From positions 1 through 53,808 of the forward strand of contig JAUXNU010000126.1 of assembly GCA_030682655.1 (NCBI GenBank): DNA of 53,808 bases. The letters run 5' to 3'. Under the pieces are notes generated by a model, which was given only the letters and a program-made list of their open reading frames with translations, was not told the origin of the DNA and made no database searches. A program made the position numbers and the translations under genes. Origin of the DNA: Actinomycetota bacterium. Its GTDB lineage: Bacteria; Actinomycetota; Coriobacteriia; Anaerosomatales; JAUXNU01. Below are positions 4,243 through 33,139 of this stretch, piece by piece. Positions within the stretch are counted from its first letter, which is position 1, and each line of letters starts with the position of its first letter.

Positions 4243-4308
4243 CATGCCGACCTGCCAAGGACAGCCCCGCGGCCATGCCGCGACGTGAAGCGAAAGGACC
4301 AGCGAAAA

Positions 4309-10277: not shown

Positions 10278-13200
10278 GCGCGCGTGCCGGGGTCGTCGCA
10301 CCCCCCAGCATCCCCGGCTGGGAGGCACTGCGTCACGGTGGCCTTCTTCTCGACCCGCCACGGCTGCGCCGGATCGCCGACCACGTCCCGGCCCCGCTTG
10401 ACGCCTACACGGAGCGCGAGCTGCGCAAGCGCCGCGCGTTGCTCCTCGACTCCTCCGCCGACGCATCCGAGTTTGCCGCGTTCGTGCTCGAGCGCGTCTG
10501 CGGCTTCGACGCACACGTCGGCGGCTCGTGGCTGCGCGGCTCGGCCGTCGGCTCCGAGCACGGTCGTCGCGCGATCACCGGAGAGGTGATCAAGCCGCGC
10601 CACTTGTGGCTGGGTCCGCAAGGCGCGGTGCTCCCGGTCTTCCTCGACGCCGAGAAGCGCATCGGCCTCGGTCGCGGTCGTCGCGCCACGGGCCATGTGT
10701 TGCAGTGGCTGCGTGCGAGCGGCAACCGCTTGGCGCTGCTCACGAACGGCCGTCAGTGGCGCCTCGTCTTCGCGGGCCTCGACTTCGACGCGTACTGCGA
10801 GGCCGACGCCGAGCTCTTCTTCGCCGAGGGCGCGATCGCCCCGCAACTCGATGCGCTGCGCACGCTCATCCAGCCCGTGCTCTGGACGCCGTCCGAGCCG
10901 GGTCTCGCCGCTCCGCTCGAGCAGGCGATCCTCGACGCACGCAAGGGCCAAGCGGAGCTGTCCGCCGTTCTCGGCGAGCGGGTGCGCGAGGCTGTCGAGG
11001 TGCTCGTGGACGCTCACGGTGCCGTGCTCACCGAGCATGGCACCGACATCGCGCCCGCCGCCATCTACCGCGCCGCGGTGCGCATGATCATGCGCATGGT
11101 CGTGGTGCTCTTCGCCGAGTCACGCGACCTGCTCCCGCGCGAGAACGCGCTCTACCACGCGAGCTACGGCCTCTCGGGTCTGATCGAGGCGCTCGAGAAG
11201 GTCGCTCATCGCTCCGGCGGCCGTCTGACGCGCAGCCACGCCGCGTGGCCGCGCGTGCTCGCGCTCTCCAGCCTCGTGTTCGAGGGCTCGTCGCACCCGG
11301 CGCTGCTCGTGCCGTCCTACGGCGGCGAGCTCTTCGCGCCCGGCGACGCGGAGGGTGCGGACGGCGTCTCGCGCGCGCTGTCGCTGTTCGAGCGCGGCTG
11401 CTACGAGCGGGAATGCGTCTCGGACCGTGACGTGCACCGTATCCTCGAGCTCATCACGCGCACGAAGGTCAGGATCCGCCAAGGCCGCGGGAGCACGTGG
11501 GTGCCCGCACCGGTCGACTTCTCAGACCTGTCGAGCGAGTACATCGGCATCCTGTACGAGGGCCTGCTCGACTTCGAGCTCAAGACCGCGCCCGCACAGG
11601 ACCCGGTGATCTTCCTCGCGGTGGGCAAGGCCCCGGCGCTCTCACTCTCTCGCCTCGAGGCGATGGACGACCGCGCGATCGCTGCGCTGCTGGAAAGCAT
11701 GAAGGAGTCCGCCGAGGAGGGCGGGAGCGAGGACGAGTCCGCCAAGGAGGACGCCGCCGAAGAGCCCGTTGAGGATGACGACGAGGACGTCACCCCCGAC
11801 GCCCCCGATGACATCGAGCCCGCCGAGGAGTCCCTCGACGCGCTTGCTGCCGAGGATGCCGTCGCCTACGCCGCCGACACTCGCCATACCACCCGCACTC
11901 GCGCGGAGGAGTGGGCGCGCCGCGCTGTCGAGGCCGGCAAGCTCGTGCGCGAGCTGCGCGGGGCGATGACGCCCGAGAGGCGTCTCGCCCATGAGGAGGC
12001 CGTCTCGCGGAAGGCCCGCCAGCTTGTCAGCCGCGTGGTGCTCCCCGGCGAGTGGTACCTCGTGCGCTGGGGCGGCACGCGCAAGGGCTCGGGCACCTTC
12101 TACACGCGTCCCGGGCTTGCCGTGCCGACCGTGCAGCGCACCCTGCGTCCGCTCGCCTACGATCCGCCCACGCACGCGGGCGGCACGCCTAACACCGACG
12201 CGCCGCCAGCTGCATGGAAACCCAAGCCACCCGAGGAGATCCTCGCACTCAAGGTCTGCGATCCGGCGTGCGGCTCCGGGACGTTCCCGGTCGCCGCGCT
12301 GCGGTTCCTGACCGAGGCGCTCTATGAGTCGCTGCTCTTCCACGACCGCATCTCCGATGACCCAGGCTGCGAGCGCGCGGTGGTGCGGCTCATCGAGCCG
12401 CCGCAGCCGCCCGGCGACACGCCCGAGGAGCGCTTGGGCCAGGAGCTCGTGCCGTGCCGTGCCGAGGAGCCCGAGTTCGAGCCGCGCCTGAAAGCCCTGC
12501 TCCGCCGTCACGTGGTGGAGCGCTGCATCTACGGCGTGGACCTCGACCCGCTCGCCGTGGAGCTCGCCCGCCTCTCGCTGTGGATCGAGACGATGGACCG
12601 CTCGCTGCCGTTCTCCTTCCTCGACCACAAGATCAAGTGCGGCAACGCGCTCGTGGGCGCATGGTTCGACACCTTCCGCCACTTCCCGGCGATGGCGTTC
12701 AAGAACCGCGAGGGCGGCGACAAGGGACACGGCAACGGCGTGCACTTCGAGAAGGACGCCCGCACGAAGGCCATCAAGGAGTTCGCGCATGGGCCGCTCA
12801 AGTCCGACCTCGCGCGGTTCCTCTCAGGACCGTCGCTCTTCGACCCGCGTGACCTCGCGCGCGACGCCGCCGGCGTGCACGACGAGGCGCTCGCCACTCT
12901 CGCGCGCCTTCACGAGCTGCCCGTGCACGACACCGCCGAGCGGGCCCGCATCTACCGCGAGGAGCTCGTGGGCTCGCCCGCGTACCGCCAGCTCAGGGAC
13001 GCGATGGACCTGTGGTGCGCGTGCTGGTTCTGGCCCGCCGACGAGCTCGACCGCGCGCCGCTGCCAACCACACTCGCTTCGCCCGCCGAGGAGACCCGCC
13101 AGGTCGCCGCCCGTCTCGCCGCGCGGCTGCGGTTCTTCCACTGGGAGCTCGAGTTCCCTGACGTGTTCCTGGAGGCGGCCTCGGGTTTCGACGCGATCCT

Positions 13201-15613: not shown

Positions 15614-15650
15614 TTGACAGCGTACACATGCGATGAGTACGATACGCGCC
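15614..15650 (+). promoter_or_regulatory. Leaderless promoter with palindromic operator for the XRE-Mrr-STAND gene
   Basis: TTGACA (15614-15619), 18 bp, TACGAT (15638-15643). The ATG lies only 8 nt beyond the -10, so the mRNA is likely leaderless. Between and overlapping the boxes is a near-perfect palindrome (15621-15641): arms CGTAC-a-CAT and ATG-a-GTACG around a 3-nt centre. That is an ideal site for the XRE domain at the N-terminus of the encoded protein. Confidence 0.6.
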
Positions 15651-18600
15651 ATGAGTGATGCATTCGACGCATGTCTTCGGCAACGACGCACGGACCTCAA
15701 CCTGACACAGGCCGAGGTTGCCCGTCGAGCTGGCGTCAGTCAGCAATCCGTGGCTCGCTGGGAGAAGGGTTCGCTGCCGAGCGAGGGTGCCGTGTTGAAA
15801 CTCGCGGCTGCCATCGGCGGTTCACCTGACGAGTGGCTATCACGAGCGGGATTCGAAGTCCGGGAGAGCACGATGCGAAGCGTCCCAGCTCGGCCGCTCG
15901 TTGGGCGGCTGCCCCTCGATCAGCTGACCCCTGATGATTTCGAGCGCCTTACTCACTCGCTGGCCGCAGCGCTCTACGGTGTGTCAGCGGAGGTGCATCG
16001 GGTGGGTGGTCCGGGTCACACCCAGCAAGGGGCCGACGTGATAGTGGAGACCTCGCGGGACGGCCGCGTTGTCTTCCAATGCAAGCGTGTCAGCGGCACT
16101 GCCACCTTCGGTCCCCTGAAGGTTGAGCAGGCTGCAAGAGCGGCAGACGGGCTCCGGGCCGATCGGCGCGTTCTTGTTCTCTCCCGAGTGGCGTCTCCTC
16201 ATGCCCGCGAACGAGCACGGGAACTCGGGTGGGATATCTGGGATCACGCCGACATCGTTCGGCTGCTTCAGCAGGACCTTCCCTCGGAGGCGTCGCGTCG
16301 GGTTGTGCGCACCTTCTTCCCCGGCTACGCTGAGCATTTCCTCGGTCTGGGGAGCCCCGCCCCTTGGCTGACGTGCGACGAGTACTTCGCCGGGCTTCTC
16401 GAGACAGGCGACTTCTTCTCTCATGGGTGGCAACTCGTGGGCAGACAGGACGAAATGACTGCGCTCAGAGAATGGGCATCGTCAGGGGAGTCACAGTTCG
16501 GCCTCTTGGTCGGTGCCGCCGGCATCGGGAAGACCCGGCTGGTGCTTGAGTTGGTGCGACAGGTCGCACGCTCCCGTGCGGTCTACTTGGTGGAGCCGAA
16601 CGTCGATGTGCGCCCGGATGACTTCGACACCCTCGATGGCGGGCCGACGGTCGTCATCGTGGACGACGCCCACGAACGCCAAGACATCGACGTGCTCGTG
16701 CGAGGGGCGCTGAGGCGCGGCGCAGGGTCCGAGACGAGGGTGCTGTTCGTCACCCGCCCGTACGGCAAGACGGGACTCGAGCGTTCGTTGGCCGCCATCG
16801 CCCCGGGGCGTGAGCGGCCCACGGTGGAGCTCGCGCCGCTTGCGCGCTCGGACGCACGCCAGCTGGCGGCCGCTGTTCTTGGCGCAGCCGAGCATTCGCC
16901 GCTGGTGGAGCGGGTGGTGGCGGTCACGGGAGACTGCACGCTCCTCACGGTTGCCGCCGCCCATCTACTCAAGACCGAGCGCATTGACCCGTCCTTGATG
17001 GCGAATGAAGACTCCTTTCGGTCGCTTGTACTTGATGCCTGGTATGACGAGTACACGCGCGCGATTGACGGGCTTCCGGGAGCCCTCGAAGTACGCGATG
17101 TGCTCCGCGTGTTGTCTGCTGTACAGCCGCTCGATTTGACCGACACGGAGGCGATCGATGCCTGCAGTACCGTCTTGGGCAGGGATAGCCGTGATGAACT
17201 GATGCAGATCCTTGATCGGCTGGTCCGGGCAGGAATCGTCTCGAAGCGCTCCACCCGGCTTCGGATTCAACCCGACATGCTCGCGGATCACATACTTGCG
17301 GACGCATGCTACAGCACCGCGCTTGCTCGGCCCACGGGCTATGCCGACCGGATCTGGGAGCGCGTGGCACCCGGACTCAAGCGGAACCTTCTGGTCAACT
17401 TGGCGCGCATCGACTGGCGGCTTTCGGTCGGCGGGGTCACTGGCGACACCCTGCTCGGGCTGGCGTGGGCTACGCTTGAGCGGGAATTCCAGGCAGGTGG
17501 AATCCAGGAGAGGCTGGCCCTGCTCTCGCTGCTCAAGGATGCTGCGCATTTCCAGCCCCGTCGGTCACTTGAACTCGCACGTTGGGCGATGGAGAACGAG
17601 GTGCCAGGCGAAGAGCCCGGTTTCCTGGGCCACGTGTCAACGTATGCTGACATTCGCGCCGCCATACCTGACGTGCTCCGCGGATGCGCCTACCACGTTG
17701 ATTGTCTTGATGAAGCGTGTGACCTGCTGTGGGAACTGGCGAAGAACGATCGCCGGCCGACAGGCCCTCATCCTGAACATCCCCTCAGGGTACTCACCGA
17801 CCTAGCGAGCTACTCGTTGCTCAAGCCCTTCGAGTATTCGAGGCGGGTCATCGAGCGGGCTCTTGGTTGGCTTGAGGCGGACGGTCGCCCTGAAGCGCTG
17901 GAGGTTCTTGACGAGGCGCTGAAGTGGGACGCAGAGGACCACGTGGCCGAGGGCTACACGATCCACATGCGGTCGTACTCCGTCCCCCTCGTGATTGGCA
18001 AAGAGGTTGTGCTGGGGCTGCGCCATCGCGTCTACGAAGGGGTGTTGGCGGCGCTTGGCGCGCCGGATCCTCCTCTGTCAGTGCGGGCGGCGCACAGTCT
18101 GGGGAATGCGTGGCGACGACCGGGTCGCCTGTTCGGGCACGAGCCGAGCGAGCATGAGAGCGCCGTTTGGGCGGCAGAGGCGGCTCACTTATTGGCGCTC
18201 CTCCGCGAGCATGCTGAACTCGCGAAACTCGATGCCTCGGTCCGGGCTGAGCTGCTGGAGGCCGTGGAGCGGCTCGCTGACAGCCAAGAAGGACAGGTCG
18301 TTACGGAGGCCCAGCGAGTCGAAGCGCTCCTGGATGAGGATCTCGATCTGGAACTCGCCGAGGCGCTCATGCACGGGCCGTGGCGACGCCGGTTCCGGCG
18401 GAGAAGCGAGAGCGCGACATCCGAGGACGAGCAAGAGCGGCTGCGAGACGTTGCCCAGCGTCTGCTTGCCAGGGAGAAGGGCCCGGAGTCCACTGTCCGT
18501 GTCGTCGAAGAGCGCTTGAACGTCGCTGCAGGTTCGGCCGGTCAGATCTCCCTCGTCCCCGGGCCGCTGATCGCAGCGTTGGTCGGGCAGGAGCCGGCTG

Positions 18601-19757
18601 TGGCTCCGAGCATTGTTGCGCGAGTGCTGGAGAAGTCCGACTCGGCTCTTCTCGGGGTGGCGGGCTACGCCCTGTCGATCCTTCGACGCGATGACCCAAG
18701 CAGAGCTCTCGAGTTGGCTCGCGCTCTGATCGCTACCAACCATGTCGATGCTAGGCGTCAGGTTGCGTACGCATACGGATGGGGCCTCGCATCTGCCCCG
18801 GGTGTCAACAGTCATGAGATTCAACTCATGCGGGAGCTTGCTGCGGATGACGACGTCTTTGTGGCGCGCAATGTCGCCGGGGGCCTTCGCCAGCTCGCCG
18901 CAAGTGAACCTGCGCTGGCTGTCGAGATTCTGCTCGACATGCGGATCGGGCGATCATCGGATCTCGCTGACGATGCCTTGGTCTTGTTCTCCAAGGGTGA
19001 GCCGCTGTCGATCGAGCTTCTCGACGAGGACGCGCTCGATCGCATTTTCGAAGAGCTCAAGCAGTGCACAAGCATCGACGAATACTGGGTCGAGCGGTTC
19101 CTCGGACAGCTCTGCGCGCGAGCGCTCGAACGAGTCATCGACCTGCTCAAGCGCCGCGTGGAGCTGGCTGAGGTTCACGATTTCGGTTATGACGACTACA
19201 GGCCCCTGCCTTTCGGCTGGGAGGACAAGACGCCCCTGTCGTCCAAAGGGCACGCTTCGCGACGGAAGCTTCTCGAGGAGCTCCGTGAGTGGGCGGCGGC
19301 TGACGTGCCCGGCTGGCGCAGGCACTTCGACGGGCCGCGGCTGTTCGCAGCAGTGGTCGGCGACTTCGATGATGAAGCACTCGGCGTCTTGGAGGCGGGA
19401 CTGAGCGGTCCGCTTCCCGAGGCGAAGAGGGTCGCGCATCTGCTGTCCGAGATTCCTAGGTCGATCATCTGGCAGGACGTGCCGTGGGTGAGCCGGATTC
19501 TCGAGAACGCGCTGCGGCGCAACGCTGATCTGTACAAGGGGGTTGCATCCGCGCTGCACTCCGCGATCACCTCGGGCGTTCGCTCAGGAACGCCTGGCCA
19601 GCCCTATCCTCAGGACCTTGAACAGCGCGACCGCGCGCGCAAGATCGCCGACAAGCTGCCGTTAGGTTCGGCGGCGGAGCGCTTCTATCGTGGGCTGCAG
19701 CGCTCCGCGGAGGCGGACATCAAGCGCAAGGGCGAAGACGACGAGGAGTGGAGTTAG
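15651..19757 (+). CDS. XRE HTH - Mrr-like nuclease - STAND NTPase (Avs-like)
   Basis: 1368 residues. Residues 1-70 are an XRE helix-turn-helix (NLTQAEVARRAGVSQQSVARWEKG). Residues about 85-215 are a Mrr-type restriction endonuclease fold: D129 in QQGADVIVE and Q143-C-K145 in VVFQCKRV form the D...(E/Q)xK motif. A P-loop NTPase follows (Walker A GAAGIGKTRL, K294; Walker B VVIVDDAH, D338-D339), then about 800 residues of alpha-helical repeat-like sequence. This nuclease-STAND-repeat order is that of Avs antiviral NTPases, which sense phage proteins and activate DNA cleavage (Avs4 has a Mrr-like effector). The extra N-terminal HTH is unusual. I chose ATG 15651 over 15633 because the latter lies within the promoter. 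A DUF3800 gene follows 3 nt later. Confidence 0.7.
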   Translation: MSDAFDACLRQRRTDLNLTQAEVARRAGVSQQSVARWEKGSLPSEGAVLKLAAAIGGSPDEWLSRAGFEVRESTMRSVPARPLVGRLPLDQLTPDDFERLTHSLAAALYGVSAEVHRVGGPGHTQQGADVIVETSRDGRVVFQCKRVSGTATFGPLKVEQAARAADGLRADRRVLVLSRVASPHARERARELGWDIWDHADIVRLLQQDLPSEASRRVVRTFFPGYAEHFLGLGSPAPWLTCDEYFAGLLETGDFFSHGWQLVGRQDEMTALREWASSGESQFGLLVGAAGIGKTRLVLELVRQVARSRAVYLVEPNVDVRPDDFDTLDGGPTVVIVDDAHERQDIDVLVRGALRRGAGSETRVLFVTRPYGKTGLERSLAAIAPGRERPTVELAPLARSDARQLAAAVLGAAEHSPLVERVVAVTGDCTLLTVAAAHLLKTERIDPSLMANEDSFRSLVLDAWYDEYTRAIDGLPGALEVRDVLRVLSAVQPLDLTDTEAIDACSTVLGRDSRDELMQILDRLVRAGIVSKRSTRLRIQPDMLADHILADACYSTALARPTGYADRIWERVAPGLKRNLLVNLARIDWRLSVGGVTGDTLLGLAWATLEREFQAGGIQERLALLSLLKDAAHFQPRRSLELARWAMENEVPGEEPGFLGHVSTYADIRAAIPDVLRGCAYHVDCLDEACDLLWELAKNDRRPTGPHPEHPLRVLTDLASYSLLKPFEYSRRVIERALGWLEADGRPEALEVLDEALKWDAEDHVAEGYTIHMRSYSVPLVIGKEVVLGLRHRVYEGVLAALGAPDPPLSVRAAHSLGNAWRRPGRLFGHEPSEHESAVWAAEAAHLLALLREHAELAKLDASVRAELLEAVERLADSQEGQVVTEAQRVEALLDEDLDLELAEALMHGPWRRRFRRRSESATSEDEQERLRDVAQRLLAREKGPESTVRVVEERLNVAAGSAGQISLVPGPLIAALVGQEPAVAPSIVARVLEKSDSALLGVAGYALSILRRDDPSRALELARALIATNHVDARRQVAYAYGWGLASAPGVNSHEIQLMRELAADDDVFVARNVAGGLRQLAASEPALAVEILLDMRIGRSSDLADDALVLFSKGEPLSIELLDEDALDRIFEELKQCTSIDEYWVERFLGQLCARALERVIDLLKRRVELAEVHDFGYDDYRPLPFGWEDKTPLSSKGHASRRKLLEELREWAAADVPGWRRHFDGPRLFAAVVGDFDDEALGVLEAGLSGPLPEAKRVAHLLSEIPRSIIWQDVPWVSRILENALRRNADLYKGVASALHSAITSGVRSGTPGQPYPQDLEQRDRARKIADKLPLGSAAERFYRGLQRSAEADIKRKGEDDEEWS

Positions 19758-19760
19758 CCC

Positions 19761-20531
19761 GTGCTGTGGCACGCATACGTGGATGAGACCGGTGATCGCG
19801 GGTGGACGCGTCGTGCGCCGGAAACCCCTATCGGCACCCGCGCCGGATCCTCCGAACACTTCTCCATGGGCGCGATCATCGTCCCCGACGGCTACCAGAC
19901 GGCCGTCTTGGATCGGTGGGACGAAGTAGCCCTTGAAATCGGCCGCAACCCGGGTGATGTCATCCATTGGATCAATATCAGGTCACATGCCCAGCGCCTG
20001 TACTTGGCTCAGACCGTCGCCGGCTTCGATCAGGCCTTTGTGGCGGCGGTGGTCTTCAGCAAATGGGACACTCCGAACGTGAATGCCAACGGAGTTCAGC
20101 AGCCTGAATATTTGTACAACTGGCTGCTCCGCATGATAGTCGAGCGGCTCTCATGGTTCGCCAGGGACCGGGGCGACACGATCAAGCTGACTTTCGGGCA
20201 GGTGAGAGGTCTTGACCCACGGAAGCTCCATGACTATCTCACGCGGCTCCGAGGACTCGACACGACCATCGCGTGGGAGGCTTTGCATCTGCCGCCTCGC
20301 ATCGACACGCCAGCGAATCGTCGGATGCTTCAGGTGGCCGACACGGTATGCGGAACCTTGAGCTCGGCGTTCGAGTGGGACAATTTCGGGAACGTCGAGA
20401 CGCGCTACCTGGAGGCGCTACGTCCTCGGCTGTGGATTCGCAACGGGAATCTGAGCAGCTACGGGCTGAAAGTGAATCCATGCCCTCATCCGCGGCATGG
20501 TTGGCTGACGGAGTTCTGTGCAAGGCGGTAG
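19761..20531 (+). CDS. DUF3800-family protein (RNase H-like fold)
   Basis: 256 residues from GTG 19761, 3 nt after the XRE-Mrr-STAND stop, hence co-transcribed. The N-terminal AYVDETGDRG and the distal LQVADTVCGTLSSAFE motif are the two signatures of DUF3800, proposed to have an RNase H-like fold with conserved acidic residues. DUF3800 proteins are often found beside restriction and abortive infection genes. Whether it is a nuclease accessory or immunity partner for the STAND protein is unknown. The 201 nt after it contain no gene that I can support. Confidence 0.7.
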   Translation: MLWHAYVDETGDRGWTRRAPETPIGTRAGSSEHFSMGAIIVPDGYQTAVLDRWDEVALEIGRNPGDVIHWINIRSHAQRLYLAQTVAGFDQAFVAAVVFSKWDTPNVNANGVQQPEYLYNWLLRMIVERLSWFARDRGDTIKLTFGQVRGLDPRKLHDYLTRLRGLDTTIAWEALHLPPRIDTPANRRMLQVADTVCGTLSSAFEWDNFGNVETRYLEALRPRLWIRNGNLSSYGLKVNPCPHPRHGWLTEFCARR

Positions 20532-20732
20532 AAAAACAGAGGCCCGGGACGTCGTCCGCTTTCGCGGTGTCACTGTCACCAGCGACTGACGTTGTTCCCG
20601 AACCTGCTATTAGTATACCCAGATGGGTCTGACATGCAAACGACGCGACGGGCGGACGGGGTCCACGGGGGGCAGTCTTCAATCGTCAGTGATCGCAGAT
20701 CTCGTGTTCAGTTTGCGGCCGGTGTTGACAGC

Positions 20733-22124
20733 TCACACCTCCCGGTCGTCAGGGATCTCGCCGGTCCAAAGCACGCGAAGCAGCGATGATGTCTGCTCGG
20801 CGCTGAACGCGGCCGGATCGAACTCGCCCCCGTACCATGTCTTCAGCGCCCTGTGCTCCGGGTGCCTGGTATCGGCCATCGCCTCGACGAACTCGGCGAA
20901 GCCGGGGATGCCTCCGCAGTCCTCCGGTGGGCAGGCACGCTCTCCGGCGGTGCATCGTGGATAGCTGACGCCGGATTCGGGCTTGGCGAGAGACTCGACC
21001 ACGATCTCGTGTTGCCAGCCGTCGCCGAAGTCGTACTCGTATTCGAACCGCTCGACACCGACGCCGACCAGGTCGGTCAGCACGATCTCCTCCTCCGGCA
21101 AGGTGTCGTCGAGGCCGAACGAGTCATCAGGCACACCGTAGCGGCGTCCATCGATCTCGAACGCGTGCAGGTGGTAGTCGAACCACCCCATCGCGGTGAC
21201 GAGCAGCTCGTGGAGCCGATCGAGCGTGAGCGACGCCGGTACTTCGAGCCTTCGCCAGACAGGTGGCTCGGTGCCGCGCAGCGTCACCTTGAGCGTGACC
21301 ACCGGGTCGCCCGAGGACGCTGCCGCAGCGCTCCCCATGCCGAGTTCGAAGCGTATCGCGGCATCGAACAATGGGGTGACTCGCCACAGCGGCGGCCCTT
21401 CGCCCTGATCCTCGTGCTCGCGTGCGAGCAGCCCGAAGTCCCAGAGTGGTTCCAGCAGGCGGCGCTGCACCGCGATCCGCAGGTTGCCGGGTCCTCCGGG
21501 CCATGGCCGACCCTCGAGCCAGACTGTGTTGCTCACGGCCACGCTCGACGTGATCTCGTCGGCAGTGGCGCCCTTCGCGGCGAGCCGGCGGATCGTCCAC
21601 AGCGCATGCACGCAGTAGCTCTGCATCGCGCGGTCTTCAGGGCCCACGTCGACGAACGCCCAGTTCAGGCGGCCGAGATAGGTTCGCAGCAGCAGGTCGA
21701 ACAGCTCACCGGCGCGCTCCGGGGCGAGCAGGCGCTTGCCGAGCCGGGTCGCGTGAAATGCGCCCTTGCGGCGGTTCACGAGTCCCGCGACCTCCATGAG
21801 GTGGCGCAGGATGAACAGGCGCGGCACATCCGTCTCGTCGAGCACACGGTTGTGGCGCCAGACCTGCTCGACGTACCCGGGAGGCCACGACATCTCCTCC
21901 GTCATGCGCTTCACGAACGCTCGGGTGAGGTTCTTGAGTTCGGTCGTCACCTTCGCGGGCTGCTCGACGAGCGCGGCTAGCAGCGTCCGCGCGTTGACGA
22001 GCGTGCGCGACCCTGCCAAGGGCTCCAGCCCAAGGGCGGTATCGGTGCGGAGGACTCCTTCGGCGTCGAGCGGATCTGCAGCGAAGAAGCGCTGCTCCAT
22101 TGTGTGGGGAATGGACTGCGACAT
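20733..22124 (-). CDS. Plasmid pRiA4b ORF-3-like protein
   Basis: 463 residues. The C-terminal 190 residues (from VVTLKVTLRGTEPPVWRRLE through YDFGDGWQHEIVVE and YPRCTAGERACPPEDCGGIPG to the C-terminus) are the PRiA4_ORF3 domain (PF07929 by recall), common on mobile elements but of unknown biochemical function. The N-terminal 270 residues look alpha-helical and resemble no family I can name. The ATG at 22124 is preceded on its strand by GGGAGGA. It lies downstream of, and on the same strand as, the toxin-antitoxin pair, with a 95-nt gap that includes a TAGAAT-like -10 (22172-22167). Confidence 0.75.
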   Translation of the reverse strand: MSQSIPHTMEQRFFAADPLDAEGVLRTDTALGLEPLAGSRTLVNARTLLAALVEQPAKVTTELKNLTRAFVKRMTEEMSWPPGYVEQVWRHNRVLDETDVPRLFILRHLMEVAGLVNRRKGAFHATRLGKRLLAPERAGELFDLLLRTYLGRLNWAFVDVGPEDRAMQSYCVHALWTIRRLAAKGATADEITSSVAVSNTVWLEGRPWPGGPGNLRIAVQRRLLEPLWDFGLLAREHEDQGEGPPLWRVTPLFDAAIRFELGMGSAAAASSGDPVVTLKVTLRGTEPPVWRRLEVPASLTLDRLHELLVTAMGWFDYHLHAFEIDGRRYGVPDDSFGLDDTLPEEEIVLTDLVGVGVERFEYEYDFGDGWQHEIVVESLAKPESGVSYPRCTAGERACPPEDCGGIPGFAEFVEAMADTRHPEHRALKTWYGGEFDPAAFSAEQTSSLLRVLWTGEIPDDREV

Positions 22125-22219
22125 GTGGTCCTCCCGGGAGGGGACGTGCGGAATCTGGTCGTTAGCATTCTACCTCTGACGGGATAAGCTGCGCGACCGG
22201 CTGTTGAGTGCCTGCCGGG

Positions 22220-22741
22220 TCAGTCAATCTCGAGGAGTGGCCTCGCCTTGTTCAGGGACAGGTACATGGGAATCTGCCGAGGACGCGCGGTTGAGGAGCC
22301 TCTGAGCACGGCGAGCTGTCCGAATCCGAGGGTCTCGTAGTAGTCGACTGCCCCAGGGAGGGCATCCACGGCTACGCCCGCGTATCCTACTTGCCCGCGC
22401 ATCGTCCATGCGACGCGTAGCGCGAAATCCACGAGAGCGCTTCCGACACCGACGCCTTGCACCCGAGCGTCGACGGCCAAGCGCGCGAGTCGTAGAAACG
22501 GCAGCGGATAGCGCGGGTACGCCGCAACAGGATCCGTGGGGACAACGTCCCTCTCCAGCGCACCCGCGGCGAGGGTGACGTACCCAGCGATTTCACTGCC
22601 TGGGGTCGCGACGTAGGTCACTCCTATGCCCAAGGCATCTTGGTTCTGCCATGCGTGCCGCTGTAGGAATCGGTCGAGCCCGGCATCGCCACAGGCGAAG
22701 GAAGCGGTGGCGTCAGAAGCCCTCAGGTGCCTGACCTGCAT
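22220..22741 (-). CDS. GNAT acetyltransferase toxin (TacT/AtaT-like)
   Basis: 173 residues with the GNAT acetyl-CoA loop (R-V-Q-G-V-G-V-G-S-A, about residues 94-103) and a C-terminal YYETLGFGQL segment typical of motif B. TacT-type toxins acetylate aminoacyl-tRNAs and stop translation. The start at 22741 (MQVRHLRASD) is chosen because GAGGTGAG precedes it and family members start this way; the frame is open to 22819. It overlaps the antitoxin gene by 29 nt, the standard arrangement in which the antitoxin comes first. Substrate is inferred. Confidence 0.8.
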   Translation of the reverse strand: MQVRHLRASDATASFACGDAGLDRFLQRHAWQNQDALGIGVTYVATPGSEIAGYVTLAAGALERDVVPTDPVAAYPRYPLPFLRLARLAVDARVQGVGVGSALVDFALRVAWTMRGQVGYAGVAVDALPGAVDYYETLGFGQLAVLRGSSTARPRQIPMYLSLNKARPLLEID

Positions 22742-23015
22742 CGAGCTCACCTCGCAGCAGCGCTCTGAGCGCAGGCGTCGGCTCGTCTGGGTTGAACATC
22801 TGCTCGACGACCCAGTCATAGGACTCGTTCGTGAGCACCAAGGTCGAAGGCACCAGGTACTCGGCAGGGATTGTGTCTACCGAGGACAGGTAGCCGTCGA
22901 GCGCCTGCTCCAGGATGTAGCCCTTCTTCAGGCCGCTCTCCCGCGCGAACTCGTCGAGCCGTTGCTTCGTCGTGGCCGAGATGTATGCCGAGATCTGGGT
23001 CTGGTCATCGCTCAC
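22713..23015 (-). CDS. Ribbon-helix-helix antitoxin (TacA/DUF1778-like)
   Basis: 100 residues from GTG 23015, with CAGGAGGCG upstream as ribosome binding site. The N-terminal half (QISAYISATTKQRLDEFA) is a ribbon-helix-helix DNA-binding domain. The C-terminal half (STLVLTNESYDW, then NPDEPTPALRALL) matches the toxin-neutralising tail of TacA/DUF1778 antitoxins. It should bind the GNAT toxin encoded just downstream and repress their shared promoter. A minus-strand TATAAC lies 5' of the gene, within 23050-23060. Confidence 0.8.
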   Translation of the reverse strand: MSDDQTQISAYISATTKQRLDEFARESGLKKGYILEQALDGYLSSVDTIPAEYLVPSTLVLTNESYDWVVEQMFNPDEPTPALRALLRGELDAGQAPEGF

Positions 23016-23142
23016 GTGAATCGCCTCCTGTAGAGAAATCTAGCAAGTTATAGACACGGGGGAATGGCCAAGCCGAAGCACTTCTCGCACCGACCACCCC
23101 GGCCGTCTTGACCCGGTGCCCAACGAGCTGTGGTGAGCATGC

Positions 23143-23183
23143 CACTTGTGTAATCGGACGATAGAGGGTATATTACGGAAGTG
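23143..23183 (+). promoter_or_regulatory. Promoter/operator of the AbiEi-type gene
   Basis: TTGTGT (23146-23151), 17 bp, TATATT (23169-23174) form a promoter with a start point only a few nt before the ATG. It is enclosed by an inverted repeat, CACTTGTGTAAT (23143-23154) against ATTACGGAAGTG (23172-23183), matching at 10 of 12 positions. AbiEi antitoxins are known to autorepress through inverted repeats at their promoter. Confidence 0.6.
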
Positions 23184-23185
23184 AA

Positions 23186-23995
23186 ATGGACGTTCAAGCT
23201 GATCACAACCGTGAACCGCTGTCAGCCCGCCTGGATGATATGCAGGCGGGCGGTCGCTACTCATTCACGGAGTCGGATCTTCAGCAGACTCCGACCAAGT
23301 CCAAGATGGCCACTGACAAAGCTCTCGGGCGGCTCAGAGATCGGGGCCGTATTGTCACTCCTCGGCGAGGCTTCCACGTGATCGTACCCACGGAGTACCG
23401 GGTTGTCGGATCACCGCCGCCCTCGTGGTTCATCGACGACTTGATGCGTTTCCTTGGCCAGCCCTACTACGTGGGGTTGCTGTCCGCCGCTACGATTCAC
23501 GGTGCCTCGCACCAGCAGCCGATGACGTTCCAGGTGGTCACTGACCGTCCCACGCGCCAAGGCGTAGCGGGGGGCGCCCGCATCGACTTCCATATGAGCG
23601 GTTCCGTGGCGGAGACTCCCGCAGCCTGGGTGCAGACGGAGACTGGCACCATGCTTGTGTCCACGCCCGAGTCGACCGCTCTCGATCTCGTTCGCTTCTC
23701 GGCGTCGAGTGGCGGATGGAGCAACGTCGCCAGTGTCTTGCAGGAACTTGCCGAACGCATCCAACCTGATGCCCTCCGCGCCGTCGCACGGCTGCGCAAG
23801 ACCCCCGAGATCCAGCGCCTCGGCTATCTTCTGGACCGCGTAGGTCAGCCGCGTCTCGCCGACCCACTGCTGCGAGTGCTCGGCTCTCGGCGATATCGAC
23901 CCGTGGCGCTGGCGCCCGACGCACCACCGATTGAGAAGGCTGCCGCGAGTCCCTGGCGCGTGATTCCGAACGTGGAAGTGGAGGTCGACCAGTGA
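23186..23995 (+). CDS. AbiEi-type antitoxin/transcriptional regulator
   Basis: 269 residues. The N-terminal winged-helix part (GGRYSFTESDLQQ...ALGRLRDRGRIVTPRRGFHVIV) and the following PPPSWFIDDLMRFLGQPYYVG...AATIHGASHQ segment are the hallmarks of AbiEi family 4 antitoxins of type IV abortive-infection systems. AbiEi normally represses its own operon and counters the nucleotidyltransferase toxin AbiEii without direct contact. Here the toxin gene that should follow is only a 45-codon scrap starting in the GTGA overlap at 23992. The gene may therefore now serve as a regulator of the downstream helicase-recQ unit. Confidence 0.8.
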   Translation: MDVQADHNREPLSARLDDMQAGGRYSFTESDLQQTPTKSKMATDKALGRLRDRGRIVTPRRGFHVIVPTEYRVVGSPPPSWFIDDLMRFLGQPYYVGLLSAATIHGASHQQPMTFQVVTDRPTRQGVAGGARIDFHMSGSVAETPAAWVQTETGTMLVSTPESTALDLVRFSASSGGWSNVASVLQELAERIQPDALRAVARLRKTPEIQRLGYLLDRVGQPRLADPLLRVLGSRRYRPVALAPDAPPIEKAAASPWRVIPNVEVEVDQ

Positions 23996-24129
23996 TTCCA
24001 CGAGCAGATATCACGGCACGGCAAGCCCAGGCGCGAAGGCCCGGGTGTCAGAGCTCCGTGGCACGCTGCACTCGTGCACGACCGTTTATCGCCCATTTCC
24101 CCGGCGAACCGTGGAAGGGTTATAGCTGA
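23992..24129 (+). pseudogene. Remnant of AbiEii nucleotidyltransferase toxin
   Basis: A GTG (23992) overlapping the AbiEi stop as GTGA opens a 45-codon frame beginning VIPRADITARQAQARRPG. This resembles the start of AbiEii/AbiGii toxins (MIPxxxITxWRxxAPW), and the position is exactly where the toxin belongs. After about 18 codons the similarity stops. The frame ends at TGA 24127-24129, which overlaps the ATG of the giant helicase gene (TGATG), so it could still couple translation. The nucleotidyltransferase domain is entirely missing. Confidence 0.5.
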
Positions 24130-27100
24130 TGGCACTCAACCCCATCGTCTTCACCGAGAACGTGGTCAAGAGCTTCCTGCGCTACCAACTCACCACGTAC
24201 GCGTTCGCCGACGAGCGCCTCCGCGTCCAGATGCGCGAATTGCTCTCTCTCGACGCCACCCGACGCTCCCCGCTGCTCAGGGGACCGTACGTGAGCCTGT
24301 CTCGGCCGTTCCGCGAGGGCGCGGCGGTGGATGCGCTCATCGCCGAGGGTCTGCTCCATCCGCATATGCGCCAGCGCATCCCGGCGGAGATCACGCATCT
24401 GTACGGCCACCAAGAAGAGGCGATCCGCGCGGTCTCCACAGGCAAGACGACGCTGGTCTCTACCGGGACCGGCTCGGGTAAGACCGAGTGCTTCCTGTAT
24501 CCCATCGTGAGCAAGTGCCTGCAGCTTCGCGACGACCACGTGACGCCCGGTATCAGCGCGGTGATCGTCTACCCCATGAACGCACTGGCCGAAGACCAAC
24601 TCATGCGGTTGCGCTCGCTGCTCGCCGGTACCGGCATCACTTGCGGCATGTACGTGGGCAAGACCCCCGAGCACGAGAACGAGGTGGTGGGTATCAGGCT
24701 GCCCCAAGGTGCCTCGCGTGCGGACTACGAGGCCAAGCTCGCTCAGGTGCGGGAGCGCGGCTCGGGCGAGACGGTCTTCCCGTACGAGGAGGCGTGCTCG
24801 CGCGAAGCGATGCGGACTCCCGGCGGGCAGCCGCGCATCCTGCTCACCAACGTCAAGCAGCTCGAGCTGCTGCTCACGCGCCAGAAGGACGTCGAACTGT
24901 TCGCCGACGCACGTCTGGACTTCCTCGTGTTCGACGAGGCGCACACGTTCACCGGGGCGCAGGGCGCGGAGACCGCCTGCCTCATCCGGCGCCTGCGCGC
25001 GTTCTGTGGGCGCGGGGAGCAGGACACGGTCTGCGTCGCGACTTCGGCCACGATCGTCGATGAGAGCGATCCAGACGCAGCGCGCGTCTTCGCTTCGCGG
25101 TTCTTCGGCGTAGCGGCCGCGGCGGTTGCGACGGTGGGTGAGGCGTATGAGCGCGCGGTGTGGGCGAGTGAGCGATTCGTGCCGCCTATGCCTGCGGAGG
25201 ACGCGGCCGCACTGCTCGACGTGTGTGTCCAGTCGGTCGAGGCGCCGGCTGATGAGATTGCCACCGTGGTTGCGGATGCGTATCGCCGTCTCTCCGGCCG
25301 CTCATTGCCGACCGGCGACTGGGCTGATGCGCTCAACACGGAGCTCGCACACAACGAGATCGCCTTCCAGTTGAGCGAACTGCTCGCCCAGCCACGCGCG
25401 CTCGACGAACTCCCGGTAGAACTCGAGCCGCTTATCGGCCGCGCAATCACCGAGGCAGAGATTCTCGCGTGGCTCACCCTCGGCGCCGCTGCGCGCCACG
25501 AGGGGAGGCCGCTGCTCCGACCGGTGGTTCACGGCTTCGTGCGCGGCGTGAGCGGGGCGGTCGTTTCCTTCCCCCAGGACGACACCCCGGCGCTCTGGCT
25601 TGCCGCTGAGGATGAGATCGAAGCGGGGGGCGGCGAGCGATTCGCGCACCTTCCGGTACTGACGTGCACCACCTGCGGGCAGCACTACTTCATCAGTGCG
25701 CTGAAGGACTTCGAGTTCACAGGGCGGCGGCCCGACGGCGGAGATGCCAGTGGTGACGGGAGCTTCTGGGAGCCGCTCGAGGAGGCGCAGGGCGGAGTTC
25801 GCGTGCCCCTGGTGGACCGCGTGGTCGGCGGTGCTGATGATGAGGACCTCGACGAAGGCGACCGGACCTCGGCGGTCCATCTCTGCAGGTACTGCGGCGC
25901 CGCACACCCCGAACCGGTATGGCGCTGTCTGCACTGCGGTATGGCCGGGGAGGCGGTGCGTCTTTTCGCCGTGCGCCAGAACAAGGACAACCCGGGCAAG
26001 CTCACGAGTTGTCTGTCATGCGGCGCCACGGGACGGCGACTCGGCGGGCTCTATCGCGAGCCGGCGAAGCCCGTGCGCGCCGTCAATGTCGCCGACGTGC
26101 ACGTGCTCGCGCAGGACATGGTGCATCACTCGGAACGCCCTCGGCTGCTCGTTTTCTGCGACAACCGGCAGGATGCCGCATTCCAGGCGGGGTGGATGAA
26201 GGACCACGCCCGTCGGTTCCGCCTGCGAGCGCTCATGGCTGAGGGGTTGCAGGCCGGGTCGATCTCAGTCGGCGACCTCACCCTGTTCCTCGATGACAAG
26301 CTCGAGGAGGACGAGTCGCTCTCTCGCGCCCTGGTCCCCGAGGTCTGGCAGGTCGTTCGCAAGGAGGGCGGCGGCACGCGCCACGAGCAGGAGCGGCGCA
26401 AGTTCCTGCGCATCCAGGTTCTGCGCGAGATCACCTTGTCGTCGCGCCAGTCGATCGGACTCGAGCCTTGGGGCCGCCTCAAGGTCGACTATGAGGGACT
26501 CGACGCCTCGCTTCCGTGGATCCAGACCAACGCCAATGCGCTCAGCATGCCTGCCGAGGACCTTCGGGACGGCGTCGCCACGGTGCTCGACTACCTCCGC
26601 CGCAAGCGCGTGTTCCACGACCCGGAGCATGAGATCTTCGGCCAGTACTGGATGGACGGCGATACCGAGGTTCAGCACGGCTACCTGCCGCAGATCGGCG
26701 CGCCGGTCGGCACCAAGCTCAGGCGTGCCCCGGACGAGAAGAAGGAACTCGTCACCCAGTGGTGGAGCGACAGCGGCGACACGACCATGCGTCAGATCGC
26801 CAAGAAGTGGGGAGTGGCGGCGGACGACATGGAGCCGTTCCTCCGGGGGTTCTTCGAGACGCTCGCGCAGCGAGGTCTGCTCGTTGGCGTGCGGCTGAAG
26901 GGCTCGCGCGGCAATCCGCTTCCGAATGTGACCGAGGTATTCCAGGTCGACGCCGATCGAGTGAGGTTGAGCGGAGGCCACGGCGTGTGGCGATGCAAGA
27001 GCTGTCGCCGCCGCTATCCGCACCGCACGCCGAAGATGTTGTGCCCTGCGTGGCGCTGCAACGGCGAACTCGAATGGGTCGCCGAAGACGCGGACAGCTA

Positions 27101-30067
27101 TGACCTGCAGATCCTCGACTCGGGCTACTCGATGTTGCGGCCCGAGGAGCACACGGCGATGGTGCCCTCTGATGAGCGCGAGCGCTTGGAGAACCTATTC
27201 AAGGGCCAGTGTGACGCGGTGAATGCTCTGGTGTGCACTCCCACGCTCGAGCTCGGCGTCGACATCGGTCAGCTCGACGCAGTCCTCATGAGGAACGTGC
27301 CGCCGCTGCCAGCCAATTACTGGCAGCGAGCGGGTCGCGCTGGTCGGCGCCATCGCATGGCGGTCGATCTGACGTACTGCCGGCCGGTCTCGCACGATCG
27401 CGCGTACTTCGCGGATCCCGTGAAGCTTCTGGCTGGCAGGGTGGATCCGCCGGCATTCAACCTGGCCAACGAGGTGATGGTCTCCAAGCACGTGCACGCG
27501 ACAGTCATCACGCGGCTGCATCAGTACGCGCGGGACACGGCCCGCTCCGAACCGGAGCGGGCAGACATCGCCGAGGTGCTGAAGACCTGCTTGCCCAATC
27601 AGGTCTCCACATATCTGTTCGATGGAGGACGCGTACGTTCGGAACCCTTCGACATGGCACCTCTCAGCCGCCTGATTGAGCGCAATGCGGATGACCTCGT
27701 CGCGTATGTCGAGAAGGCGTTCCGCCAGGGGTGGCCCGAAGCGGACGCGAAGGTCGTGAGCCCCGAGCGGTTGCATGCCTATGTCCTCGGTATGGGCTCG
27801 GAGCTTGAGGCGGTGCTCGTTCGACTGCGCCGGCGGCTCGCATGGGCTATGGAGCAGATCCATCGGCTCAACGCCGTACGCGAGCGAGAAGGTGATCTTG
27901 GTCCCGAGGATGACTCGCTGTTCAAGCGATGCGATCGTCTTGTGAAGCGGCTCAAAGGTACGACGCGCCGCAGCCGGCGCGAGGCTGAGGGCTATGACGA
28001 CGTGAACACCTTCGGCATGCTCGCCGGTGAGGGCTTCCTGCCCGGCTATGGGCTTGAAGTCGGTTCGATTCTCGGCACCGCTGAGATCCCATTCTGGCGT
28101 GTCGGCGCGGCCGACTTCGTGCTGCCCCGGCCTCCGAGCGTCGCCCTGCGGGAGTACGTGCCTGGCAACCTGATCTACGCCAATGGGAACCGGTTCGTGG
28201 CGAGGCGGTTCCATCGCGACATCGATGAACAGCGCGCGGAGATGCCCACGTTCGAGGTGTCGGTAGAGCGACAGGCGATCAAGCAGACGAATGTCTCTGC
28301 GACGTCGTCCTCGTTCGGTTCGAGTTCCCTCCAGGCTATCGCGGTGTGCGACGTCGACCTCGTGCATCAGTCCCACATCTCCGATGACGAGGTGCTCCGG
28401 TTCCAGATGGGCGTCGCCGTTCATGGGGTGGAGCGAGATCAGCACAACGGAGGTCAGGCCTACCGCTGGGGCGCACAGGACGTGCAGCACCTGCGTGGTG
28501 ATCGGTTGCGCCTCGTGAACATCGGGGCCGCAAACGCGATTGCTCGCAAGGAGCCGCTCCTCGGCTACCCGGTTTGCACCGTGTGCGGGCAGAGCGTCTC
28601 CCCGCTGTCATCCGAGCGACAGCTGGAGCAGTTCACTGCGGATCATCTGGAGCGATGCGGTCGCCAGGTGACGCCGGTCGGCTTCTATGCTGACGTGACC
28701 TCCGACGCCTTGGTGCTGCGGGCGGTGGCGGACCAGACTGTAGCGTACAGCGTCCTTGAGACGCTGAGGATTGCCGCATCCCAGCTGCTGGACATGCACC
28801 GCGATGACCTGCAGCTCCTCGTCGTCGGGCATGTTGACCGCGATGAAGTCGACGCTCTGCTCTGGGACCCGATGCCGGGCGGTTCGGGGCTGATCGATCA
28901 GATTGTCGGACGTTTTCATGAGGTGCTGGCTGTGGCCCGTGCCGTCGTCGAGAGCTGTCCTGCGGCCTGCGCCTCCTCGTGCATCGACTGTCTGCAGACG
29001 TTCCGGAACGGGTACTACCACAAGCACCTCGACCGCACCGTGGCGCTCGAGTGCTTTGAGGCGTGGGGTGATTTGCTCACGGCGGCTCATCCGATTCCGC
29101 CCAAGCAGCCCTCGCAGGAGCCGTCAGAGGGCTCGTATCCAGTGAACGCTGCGGAGCAACGCCTGCGTGCGCTGCTGTTGGCGGCGGGCTTTGAAGAGGG
29201 TGTGCGCGGCGAGCAGGTCAGGCTCGACCGGACAATCGGTACCACCACTCCGGATGTCATCTGCCGTGCCCCTCATCACGACGACGATGAGGGCATTGCG
29301 ATCTACCTCGACGGGCTGAGCGCACACATCCACGGGAGTCCGGCCACCGCGGAGAAGGACCGCGAAATCCGCGACTGGCTGCGGGGCCACGGATGGGAAG
29401 TCATCGAGATCGCGGCCAACCAACTCGGCGACGCAGACGCGATGACACGCCACTTTCGACGACTGGCCGGGTACTTGGGCGATACGGAACGGCGGGATGC
29501 GGTGCGGGCCGATCATAGTTGGTTCGAGGGTGCGGCTCATGGTGCGGTAACCGCCGTTCAGTCGACACTCCGAATCGTGAAGCCCACGCCGGTGCGGCGC
29601 TGGGTGAGCGCGGTGCCGTTCGTGCCGCTGGCTGCGGCCGCCGGATCATTCAGCGATGCGCAGCAAGTTGGCGCTGAGGACGAGTGGGAGTGGGTGGAAC
29701 TCGATGCCGGGCGCTCGCTGCGCCCCGGCATGTTCGTGACTCAGGTGATCGGCAAGTCGATGGAACCGCTGATTCCAGATGGCTCGTACTGCCTCTTCTC
29801 GACGCCGGTGATCGGGTCTCGGCAGGGCCGCGTAGTCCTGGCCGAGCTGCGTGATGGTGTTGATCCAGAGAGTGGTGAGCGTTACACGGTGAAGCGGTAT
29901 GGGAGCGAGAAGGTCGATTCGGGAGGTGGTTGGCGGCATTTACGTGTGACGCTCAAGCCGGAGAATCCTGGATTCGAACCCATCGTGCTCGCAGCCAGCG
30001 ATGAGTCTGAGGTAGCCGTCGTTGCCGAGTTCATTGCGGTGGTCGCCGAGTCAGTGGCTGGCGAGTA

Positions 30068-30068
<1 letters not shown>
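24129..30068 (+). CDS. Giant helicase-nuclease with LexA-like S24 peptidase tail
   Basis: 1979 residues; GGAAGGG at 24113-24119 precedes the ATG. In order: SF2 helicase lobe 1 (Walker A TGTGSGKT 112-119; DEAH 269-272); four CxxC pairs (513/516, 586/589, 600/603, 628/631) and another cluster from 956, all likely zinc sites; helicase lobe 2 (QRAGRAGRR 1066-1074); a DUF1998/MZB module with C1610, C1614, C1618, C1621; a PD-(D/E)xK Vsr/DUF559-like domain (P1708-D1709, YLDG 1726-1729, later GHGWEVIEI); and an S24 domain (SMEP, S1877; VKRY, K1922). AAAAG at 1835-1839 fits a LexA-type Ala-Gly cleavage site. The helicase plus MZB part resembles DruE, DrmA/B and MrfA. Nuclease and peptidase activity are inferred from motifs. 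recQ overlaps its stop codon. Confidence 0.75.
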
Positions 30069-31876
<1,808 letters not shown>

Positions 31877-32098: not shown

Positions 32099-33139
32099 AT
32101 GACCGACGTTGCGATCATCGGTGCCCCCGGGTATGCCGGAGTGGAGCTCACGAGGCTCGTCCTCGGCCATGCTGGGTTGAACCTGACTTTGGTGACATCG
32201 CAGGCCGAAGCCGGGACTCGCGTCGGCGACGTCTACCCTGCTCTGGGTGCGCTTACCGACTTGGCGTATGTTGCTCCCGATGTCGAGCAGATAGTGTCCA
32301 GCGCACAGCTCGCGTTCCTAGCAGTTCCGCACACGGCGGCTCTGGGACTTGCGCCCGCGCTGCTGGCGGCCGGACTCACCGTCGTGGACGCTTCCGCTGA
32401 CTACCGTCTCAAGGACGCCGGACTCTACGAGCGGTGGTACGGCGTCGCGCACACATCGCCAGAGCTGCTCGACGACGCAGTCTACGGGCTGCCCGAGTAC
32501 GATCGCTCGAAGCTCCCGGGCGCCAAGCTGATCGCCTGCGCGGGCTGCTACCCCACAGCCACGCTGCTTGCCGCGTTTCCCGCGCTCGAAGCGGGGGTGT
32601 CCCTTGGCGAGCACATCGTCGTCGACGCCAAGTCCGGGGTCTCGGGCGCGGGCCGGACGCCGAATGCGGTCACGCACTTCCCGACGGTCAACGAGGCCAT
32701 ACAGCCCTACAAGGTCACCGCTCATCGGCATACGCCCGAGATCGAGCAGGGACTTTCCCTGGCTGCGGGTCGCGACGTGTGTATCACCTTCACGCCGCAC
32801 CTCGTACCGATGACGCGCGGTCTGCTCTCAACTGTCTATCTGCCGCTTGCCAAGGAGCTCACTACCGAGGATGCTGTCGCGCTGTACCGCGAGCGCTTCT
32901 CCGGCGAGCCGTTCGTGACCGTTCACGAGTCGGGCCGGATGCCGTCGACCGCCGAGGTGCGGGGCACGAACCGGGCTCACATCGGCCTCGCTGTCGACGA
33001 GCACACCGGAACGCTGGTGGCGGTGTGCGCCATCGATAACCTGGTCAAGGGCACCTCGGGCCAGGCAATCCAGTGTGCGAACCTCGCTTTGGGATACGAA
33101 GAGACGGCGGGGCTTGCCCATCCGGCCCCGGTCATCTAG
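32099..33139 (+). CDS. argC: N-acetyl-gamma-glutamyl-phosphate reductase
   Basis: Third step of arginine synthesis: NADPH reduction of N-acetylglutamyl phosphate to the semialdehyde. 346 residues, the normal length. The N-terminal GAPGYAGVELTRL is the Rossmann loop, and C150 in ACAGCYPTA is the catalytic cysteine. GAGGGGAAGG directly precedes the start. It is the first gene of the arginine operon. Confidence 0.96.
   Translation: MTDVAIIGAPGYAGVELTRLVLGHAGLNLTLVTSQAEAGTRVGDVYPALGALTDLAYVAPDVEQIVSSAQLAFLAVPHTAALGLAPALLAAGLTVVDASADYRLKDAGLYERWYGVAHTSPELLDDAVYGLPEYDRSKLPGAKLIACAGCYPTATLLAAFPALEAGVSLGEHIVVDAKSGVSGAGRTPNAVTHFPTVNEAIQPYKVTAHRHTPEIEQGLSLAAGRDVCITFTPHLVPMTRGLLSTVYLPLAKELTTEDAVALYRERFSGEPFVTVHESGRMPSTAEVRGTNRAHIGLAVDEHTGTLVAVCAIDNLVKGTSGQAIQCANLALGYEETAGLAHPAPVI

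Follow-up and report, generated by a model that had tools for sequence, protein, structure and literature searches.

The stretch of DNA analysed in this study, hereafter the window, comprises the 53,808 nucleotides of contig JAUXNU010000126.1 (positions 1 to 53,808 of the forward strand) in assembly GCA_030682655.1 of an Actinomycetota bacterium. It contains a gene for a 1979-residue helicase-nuclease of the YprA/DruE type, which ends in a peptidase S24 domain of the LexA type and which, together with its neighbours, looks like part of an ARMADA-type system on the basis of sequence comparisons. While ARMADA, HsdR, and S24 domains are already known, the occurrence of the same subfamily of S24 tails on unrelated defence enzymes is new. 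This suggests a built-in switch through which DNA damage could turn such enzymes off (or on). A first-pass annotation had proposed that the window protein is a defence or repair effector that autoproteolysis switches on or off. This interpretation is supported in part: the analysis bears out the S24 fold of the tail, its predicted Ser-Lys dyad, and its candidate Ala-Gly cleavage site, and also favours a putative defence effector controlled by a self-cleaving domain.

The S24 tail and the enzyme that carries it

The protein and its predicted functional elements are laid out as follows.

24129-30068, plus strand: open reading frame (ORF) of the YprA/DruE-type helicase-nuclease with S24 tail (1979 residues)
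24129-29537, plus strand: YprA/DruE-type helicase body (residues 1-1803, assigned with PADLOC and Pfam), at the end of which close relatives stop
29196-29528, plus strand: Vsr/DUF559-like PD-(D/E)XK nuclease domain (about residues 1690-1800; PD...LDG...H)
29538-30065, plus strand: putatively grafted C-terminal S24 (LexA-type) tail (residues 1804-1979; Pfam core 1835-1966)
29640-29645, plus strand: predicted scissile bond Ala1838-Gly1839, from an alignment of 18 tails (see below) with the host LexA
29757-29759, plus strand: predicted nucleophile Ser1877 (GKSM)
29892-29894, plus strand: predicted general base Lys1922 (VKRY)

The tail of the window protein is a real S24 domain with a LexA fold and with a predicted dyad and cleavage site. 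Residues 1835-1966 of the whole protein match PF00717 (Peptidase_S24) with an E-value of 2.2e-6 and 27.8 bits, above the curated cut-off of 23.3 bits, and the tail alone scores 34.4 bits (E 2e-8). The tail was modelled with AlphaFold from 24 sequences, mostly short viral S24 proteins, with a predicted local distance difference test score (pLDDT) of 82.5. This model matches LexA with a Z-score of 12.4 and a root-mean-square deviation of 3.3 over 121 residues, LexA bound to the RecA filament (8gms) with Z 12.0, the lambda repressor (CI) with Z 12.1, and UmuD' with Z 10.4, the range for LexA, CI, and UmuD being 12.4 to 10.2. Foldseek likewise aligned the model with LexA at E 1.6e-5, with TM-scores by query length of only about 0.4-0.6, and the PDB matches found by a sequence profile alone were two LexA entries (E 0.005 and 0.01). 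No NCBIfam model fits the tail, the best match being UmuD with 16.4 bits against a cut-off of 110. The residues named in the first-pass annotation were verified in the translation and in the alignment: four alanines occupy positions 1835-1838 and are followed by Gly1839, which precedes Ser1877 by 38 residues, and Ser1877 in turn precedes Lys1922 by 45. In S24 proteins, an Ala-Gly (or Cys-Gly) pair is expected some 33-38 residues ahead of the Ser, and such a pair is present in the window tail. A repressor fragment or a stray S24 gene was ruled out as an explanation, as the domain forms the in-frame end of a long ORF.

The body that precedes the tail had been described as a helicase with zinc clusters, an MZB module, and a Vsr/DUF559-like nuclease domain. 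Its best PADLOC model is DruE3 (E 1.9e-100), and Pfam recognises DEAD (residues 94-183), Helicase_C (1009-1074), and the MrfA zinc-binding domain MZB (1546-1622), whereas the zinc-type cysteine motifs are visible on reading the sequence. The nuclease part of the description holds in terms of aligned motifs, as seven sequences (the window protein and six relatives) share the E, PD, LDG, H, and D positions, but not in terms of a Pfam match of the window protein itself, which has none there at E 0.01. One tail-bearing relative, L043, does match MTES_1575 (E 1e-7) and DUF559 (E 1e-5) at this position.

Recurrence and history of the tail

When the tail was used as a query against a phylum sample, 15 of the 396 genomes matched at E 0.001, 12 of them at E <=1e-14, with the window's own genome included; in a class sample 2 of 197 genomes matched, one being the window's own. 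A profile of nine tails matched 3 of 36 and 4 of 27 genomes from two other classes, all of which had already been detected, and 8 of 299 from a third class, where G504 had already been detected. Strong matches were also found on two IMG/VR contigs (L053 and L054) and, in plasmid searches, in one record from Halomonas. Two tblastn searches of phages and a viral scan with the L094 tail returned no tail. The other viral-contig matches that were read are shorter S24 proteins of 192-397 amino acids (aa), of the phage-repressor type by size, among which a helix-turn-helix (HTH) was noted by eye only in L055. Reading of the ORFs gave 18 usable tails, which are distributed over the following enzymes, with the cognate genes that lie beside them.

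HsdR (type I), seven tails: L046, L047 (beside HsdM), L048 and L091 (each beside HsdS), L053 (beside an N6 methylase), L092, L094
YprA/DruE helicase, four tails: the window, L043, L049, L095 (beside a PglX-like methylase)
PglX/DrmMI methyltransferase, two tails: L041, L042
Type III Res-type, two tails: L054, L093 (each beside a type III-kind methylase)
Schlafen-group-3 helicase, two tails: L044, L052
SNF2 helicase, one tail: L050

The tails thus belong to one subfamily, while the ATP-driven restriction and defence enzymes that carry them are unrelated. Fifteen of the 18 tails terminate ORFs of at least 584 aa (765 aa for L050), the exceptions being the short ORFs of L052 and L092, and L046, whose 584-aa ORF is cut off at its 5' end. 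Several of the retained tails are imperfect: in L052 the tail ORF is in another frame than the helicase ORF, which it overlaps, the 5' ends of L043 and L046 are cut by the contig, L092 (239 aa) is also contig-cut and is an HsdR by similarity, and L050 is probably a damaged SNF2 gene. Excluded from the set were the contig-end fragments of G353 (98 aa) and G615 (54 aa), the tail L045 of G350, which is in a different frame from its partner, the decayed HsdR L096 of G616, which has an internal stop, and weak S24 matches (E 1e-4 to 7e-4) in G124, G261, G300, G426, and G450:C176. HsdM, HsdS, or Mod-type genes adjoin five tails among those scanned (L047, L048, L053, L054, L091, and L093), and these tail enzymes therefore belong to modification-dependent systems.

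Despite a divergence that reaches down to 36% identity to the window's tail, the predicted Ser, the predicted Lys, and the P1 Ala are kept in 18 of 18 tails in the alignment. The predicted cut is preceded by Ala-Ala in 17 and followed by a P1' Gly in 16 of them, and the distance from the site to the Ser is 33-41 residues, compared with 33 in the host LexA. In their fold, Ser-Lys dyad, Ala-Gly site, and site-Ser spacing, the tails resemble LexA, UmuD, and lambda CI. In contrast to those proteins, they form a subfamily of their own, and the window's tail ends a 2000-residue helicase-nuclease rather than a repressor or a polymerase subunit. They also differ from the host LexA in the Ser-Lys spacing, which is 45 in 15 tails and 50 in three, but 37 in LexA.

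The locus of L041 (204-12870) is of the ARMADA type, with YprA followed by SNF2/BrxHII-type genes and with the PglX-S24 gene last, and a comparison of ORF layouts shows the same sizes and order in L042 (2149-14854). In both L041 and the window the tail is on the last gene, which is PglX in the former and YprA, the last of three, in the latter. Tails are also found in broken genes, namely the decayed HsdR-S24 gene of G616 (L096, 8269-9261) and the off-frame tail of G350 (L045, 7832-8330).

The history of the tail appears to differ from that of its partners. In a tree of 17 tails, the window tail pairs with the HsdR tail L053 with support of 96/93, and in a tree of 19 rows that includes LexA and L050 the same pair has support of 91/46. 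The window and L053 tails are 59-63% identical, the value varying with the alignment used, whereas the window tail is 44-49% identical to the other YprA tails. On the 17-row tree, from which L050 and LexA were left out, a single clade of the four YprA tails was rejected with p 0.025 and one of the seven HsdR tails with p 0.010, both groups having been picked after a first tree had been inspected. Shuffled labels require about the same number of changes on the tail tree as the actual partner kinds do. In a tree of YprA bodies, the window protein falls inside the set of tail-less relatives with support of 98/99, where G028 of that set is cut. Together, these comparisons suggest that the tail has been grafted repeatedly onto different enzymes, and the simplest account would be a gain in the window lineage from a donor of another effector class. 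Five tail pairs gave nonsynonymous rates (dN) of 0.13-0.38 and synonymous rates (dS) of 0.91-2.11, the latter near saturation in some, which indicates that the tails are under purifying selection.

A proposed RecA-triggered off-switch

It is an old question how a host whose DNA is damaged or newly replicated avoids being killed by its own DNA-destroying defence enzymes. The best explanation for the tail, to which we would give somewhat less than an even chance, is that it is a LexA-type self-cleaving module that serves ATP-driven defence enzymes, here a YprA of the ARMADA type, as an off-switch triggered by RecA. Damage to the host DNA would give rise to filaments of RecA on single-stranded DNA (ssDNA), and these would prompt the tail to cleave its own polypeptide at Ala1838-Gly1839. 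Having shed its tail, the enzyme would be left with a new C-terminus ending in Ala-Ala, similar to the latent degron exposed on LexA, and the cut enzyme would be inactivated or degraded. In this way a DNA-destroying enzyme could be put out of action for as long as host DNA that is damaged, newly made, or unmethylated lies exposed, and restriction alleviation, post-translational and independent of LexA, would be built into the enzyme itself. An off-switch is favoured because the tails stand behind structurally unrelated domains, and removal or degradation works on any partner, and because those partners include enzymes for which hosts need alleviation. Attachment points as unrelated as these would be easier to reconcile with a general-purpose removal tag than with a specific autoinhibitory contact.

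There are precedents for the individual steps of such a switch. ClpXP is reported to destroy the HsdR subunit of EcoKI in restriction alleviation, also under DNA-damage stress, and the degron of HsdR is given there as unidentified (PMC4231737). LexA and IrvR are described as exposing a ClpXP C-degron next to their cut (PMC5742171). The alleviation of EcoKI, as described, resembles our proposal in its purpose, the post-translational disarming of an enzyme when the host DNA is damaged or unmodified; the difference is that the tail enzymes would carry their own RecA-triggered cut and degron. It is possible, although we put this forward tentatively and at less than an even chance, that the tails are copies of a portable, SOS-responsive self-destruct cassette, a single subfamily grafted repeatedly on type I, type III, ARMADA, and Schlafen-type enzymes, which cuts on RecA filaments and marks its carrier for removal. 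If true, this would be a direct, transcription-free link from RecA to immunity that is common to HsdR, Res, PglX, YprA, and Schlafen-type enzymes, and the tail would be a portable damage-responsive off-tag for protein engineering.

The host possesses the components of an SOS circuit. Its LexA has the cleavage site VAA-G and the dyad, and RecA is encoded on the same contig as LexA. An exact GAACN4GTTC motif lies upstream of lexA, together with two near-copies seen by eye, and another just before the RecA match. An SOS box that drives the island was not supported, as no exact GAACN4GTTC occurs in 7017-31876 and the sole copy in the window is at 49872; control of the YprA gene by LexA binding is therefore not suggested. 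We searched for LexA and ClpX in 17 of the 19 genomes with tails or fragments, with G353 and G615 outside this set. LexA was found at E<1e-18 in 14 of the 17, and the ClpX zinc-finger family (PF06689) in 15.

A number of observations weigh against the off-switch. LexA was unmatched in G202 and gave only weak matches in G504 and G450, and PF06689 was not found in G202 or in the window genome (G000), a metagenome-assembled genome (MAG) that is 97.4% complete. The latter may reflect a gap in the MAG or the use of another AAA+ protease; with ClpX not found in G000, the protease step may thus belong to another AAA+ protease or may be wrong. Plasmid-induced alleviation of EcoKI in E. coli is reported to be independent of the SOS response (PMC11109961), and a cut end that looks like a degron is not the same as degron activity. 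Within the tails themselves, the Gly is replaced by Ser in L046 and by Thr in L054, and the stretch around the cleavage site is among the weakly modelled parts (pLDDT 53-81 in 10-residue blocks). The tail tree is poorly resolved, with the partner kinds only loosely clustered. As for its distribution, the tail is absent from the close relatives with readable ends. In a neighbourhood set of 41 genomes, the C terminus of a close relative could be read in three, namely G016 (81% identity to the window protein), G006 (77%), and G023 (69%), and all three proteins stop at about residue 1803 without an S24 tail; the further relatives G028, G040, and L005 are cut before their C-terminal ends. No separate S24 gene was found with the tail profile near tail-less relatives in the seven loci read, some of which are short or contig-cut. 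Among the 396 genomes of the phylum sample, 12 match the whole protein at E 1e-40, 10 of them over the helicase parts; three of these 10 (the window's, G378, and G504) have the tail, and seven have no tail match among the best two candidates per genome. Homologues without the dyad were named in the first-pass annotation as grounds for refutation. The dyad is indeed missing, along with the whole domain, from the three readable close relatives, but it is intact in 17 other tail proteins, 14 of which are of other kinds, and for this reason the tail-less homologues do not refute a function.

The same domain could also work in the opposite sense, with the tail keeping the helicase-nuclease inactive until RecA filaments on invading or damaged phage DNA trigger a freeing cleavage. 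The dyad, site, and fold apply equally to such an on-switch, phage infection is able to produce RecA-coated ssDNA, and in the YprA proteins the tail comes directly after the nuclease domain. However, the tails follow ends as unrelated as the HsdR C-terminal domain, PglX, Res, a Schlafen helicase, and the Vsr nuclease, and a single inhibitory contact is unlikely to serve them all. HsdR and Res recognise their targets by methylation state without requiring a signal of damage, and activating nucleases amid damage to the host DNA would be dangerous. We regard an on-switch as unlikely. Much the same can be said of a tail that cleaves nothing under physiological conditions and only brings the enzyme to RecA filaments or dimerises it by way of the S24 interface, which we also consider improbable. 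The S24 domains of LexA, UmuD, and CI do dimerise and bind RecA filaments (cf. entries 8gms, 8gmt, and 8gmu), and both the two tails that have lost the Gly and the existence of tail-less relatives would fit such docking, but pure docking would not explain why the dyad and the P1 Ala are retained without exception across such divergent tails.

Action in trans, in which the tail would compete with LexA for RecA or would cleave a different S24 protein, for instance LexA itself or a prophage repressor, seems very improbable. UmuD-type domains can cleave in trans, and the tails share the substrate motif with the host LexA; against this, every one of the 18 tails has a candidate site of its own at LexA-like spacing from its own dyad, which makes cutting in cis the simpler assumption, and nothing in the analysis points to a trans target. 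Least probable of all is a chance fusion or a MAG assembly artefact without function. Such an artefact would be in keeping with the 4.6% contamination of the MAG from which the contig derives and with the window protein being the only one to carry the tail among close relatives with readable ends. Yet the protein runs into the tail in frame, without a stop and exactly at the native C terminus, and the 17 additional tails were found in genomes other than this one, on IMG/VR contigs, and on a plasmid. They include YprA-S24 fusions in G378, G504, and G621, and the selection acting on the tails is a further argument against an artefact.

The island around the gene

The YprA gene lies in an island flanked by pheT (4285-6759) and argC (32099-33139), whose other genes are listed below.

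7017-10277, plus strand: BrxHII/DrmD-type SNF2 helicase (PADLOC: DrmD E 1.4e-201, BrxHI/BrxHII E 6e-69)
10235-15595, plus strand: PglX/DrmMI-type methyltransferase (Pfam Eco57I; PADLOC: type IIG E 0, DrmMI E 1e-124)
15633-23995, no single strand: cargo between PglX and YprA (by Pfam: HTH-Mrr_cat-AAA, DUF3800, PRiA4_ORF3 on the minus strand, GNAT on the minus strand, AbiEi-type)
30068-31876, plus strand: RecQ helicase (DEAD, Helicase_C, RecQ_Zn, RQC, HRDC)

The first-pass annotation knew of no described system with this exact set of domains. The helicase-nuclease and its neighbours, however, look like a system that is already known, ARMADA, and the tail is therefore the unusual part. As described by Bell et al., ARMADA comprises a YprA helicase with a C-terminal Vsr nuclease, a BrxHII-like helicase, and a PglX-like methyltransferase (PMC12458937). 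The window has genes for a YprA-Vsr protein and for BrxHII- and PglX-type proteins, with YprA separated from the other two by the cargo, while the three are contiguous in G006. The window differs from ARMADA in this cargo and in the S24 tail, the terms S24, LexA, peptidase, protease, and RecQ being absent from the main text of that report; it also differs from type II ARMADA, where a RelE-GajB gene is described as following, in that its next gene encodes RecQ. Druantia III is a further point of comparison, as DruE models are the best PADLOC matches of the window helicase. In contrast to that system, no DruH appears in the window among the matches listed (at most 25 each) for the six neighbours scanned, and the C-terminal nuclease is Vsr-like, whereas Druantia III has two PLD-type nuclease domains, although a Vsr-like nuclease is also reported for some Druantia III-like proteins (PMC12458937). 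The term S24 is absent from the main text of two papers on Druantia III (PMC13316683 and PMC13192584), and a self-cleaving tail shared among defence enzymes is not described in any of the papers listed by searches of the open-access literature, with subscription literature outside the search. The window genome contains a second ARMADA-like locus (L021, G000:C181, 9159-20000), in which a YprA relative precedes BrxHII- and PglX-like genes; an S24 family search of this genome gave no match on that contig.

The listed GTG start of RecQ overlaps the stop of YprA by one base. The first-pass annotation had raised the question of whether recQ is always adjacent, and it does not appear to be a constant neighbour: with the window RecQ, tblastn gave no more than weak helicase-motif matches in the stretches read around the G016, G006, and G023 relatives. 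The cargo genes likewise had no tblastn match in the G006 stretch, and the BrxHII and PglX partners had none in the 20 kb around the G023 relative. In L005 the end of a PglX relative lies just upstream of its YprA, and the G016 contig starts just before YprA.

Among the cargo, 15633-19757 encodes a 1374-residue protein in which an HTH is joined to an Mrr-type nuclease domain and to an AAA-type ATPase; this looks like a further defence gene and is followed by the DUF3800 gene. An AbiEi-type antitoxin-like gene occupies 23186-23995, and the neighbouring ORFs that were scanned include no recognisable AbiEii-like toxin. Upstream of pheS, a small ORF (2393-2779) has an S24/S26-like peptidase match and is probably signal-peptidase-like. 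The YprA relative of G016 (L017, G016:C11) also shares its contig with pheS-pheT, which lie about 9 kb upstream; this is a hint that the surroundings of these genes may be favoured for integration.

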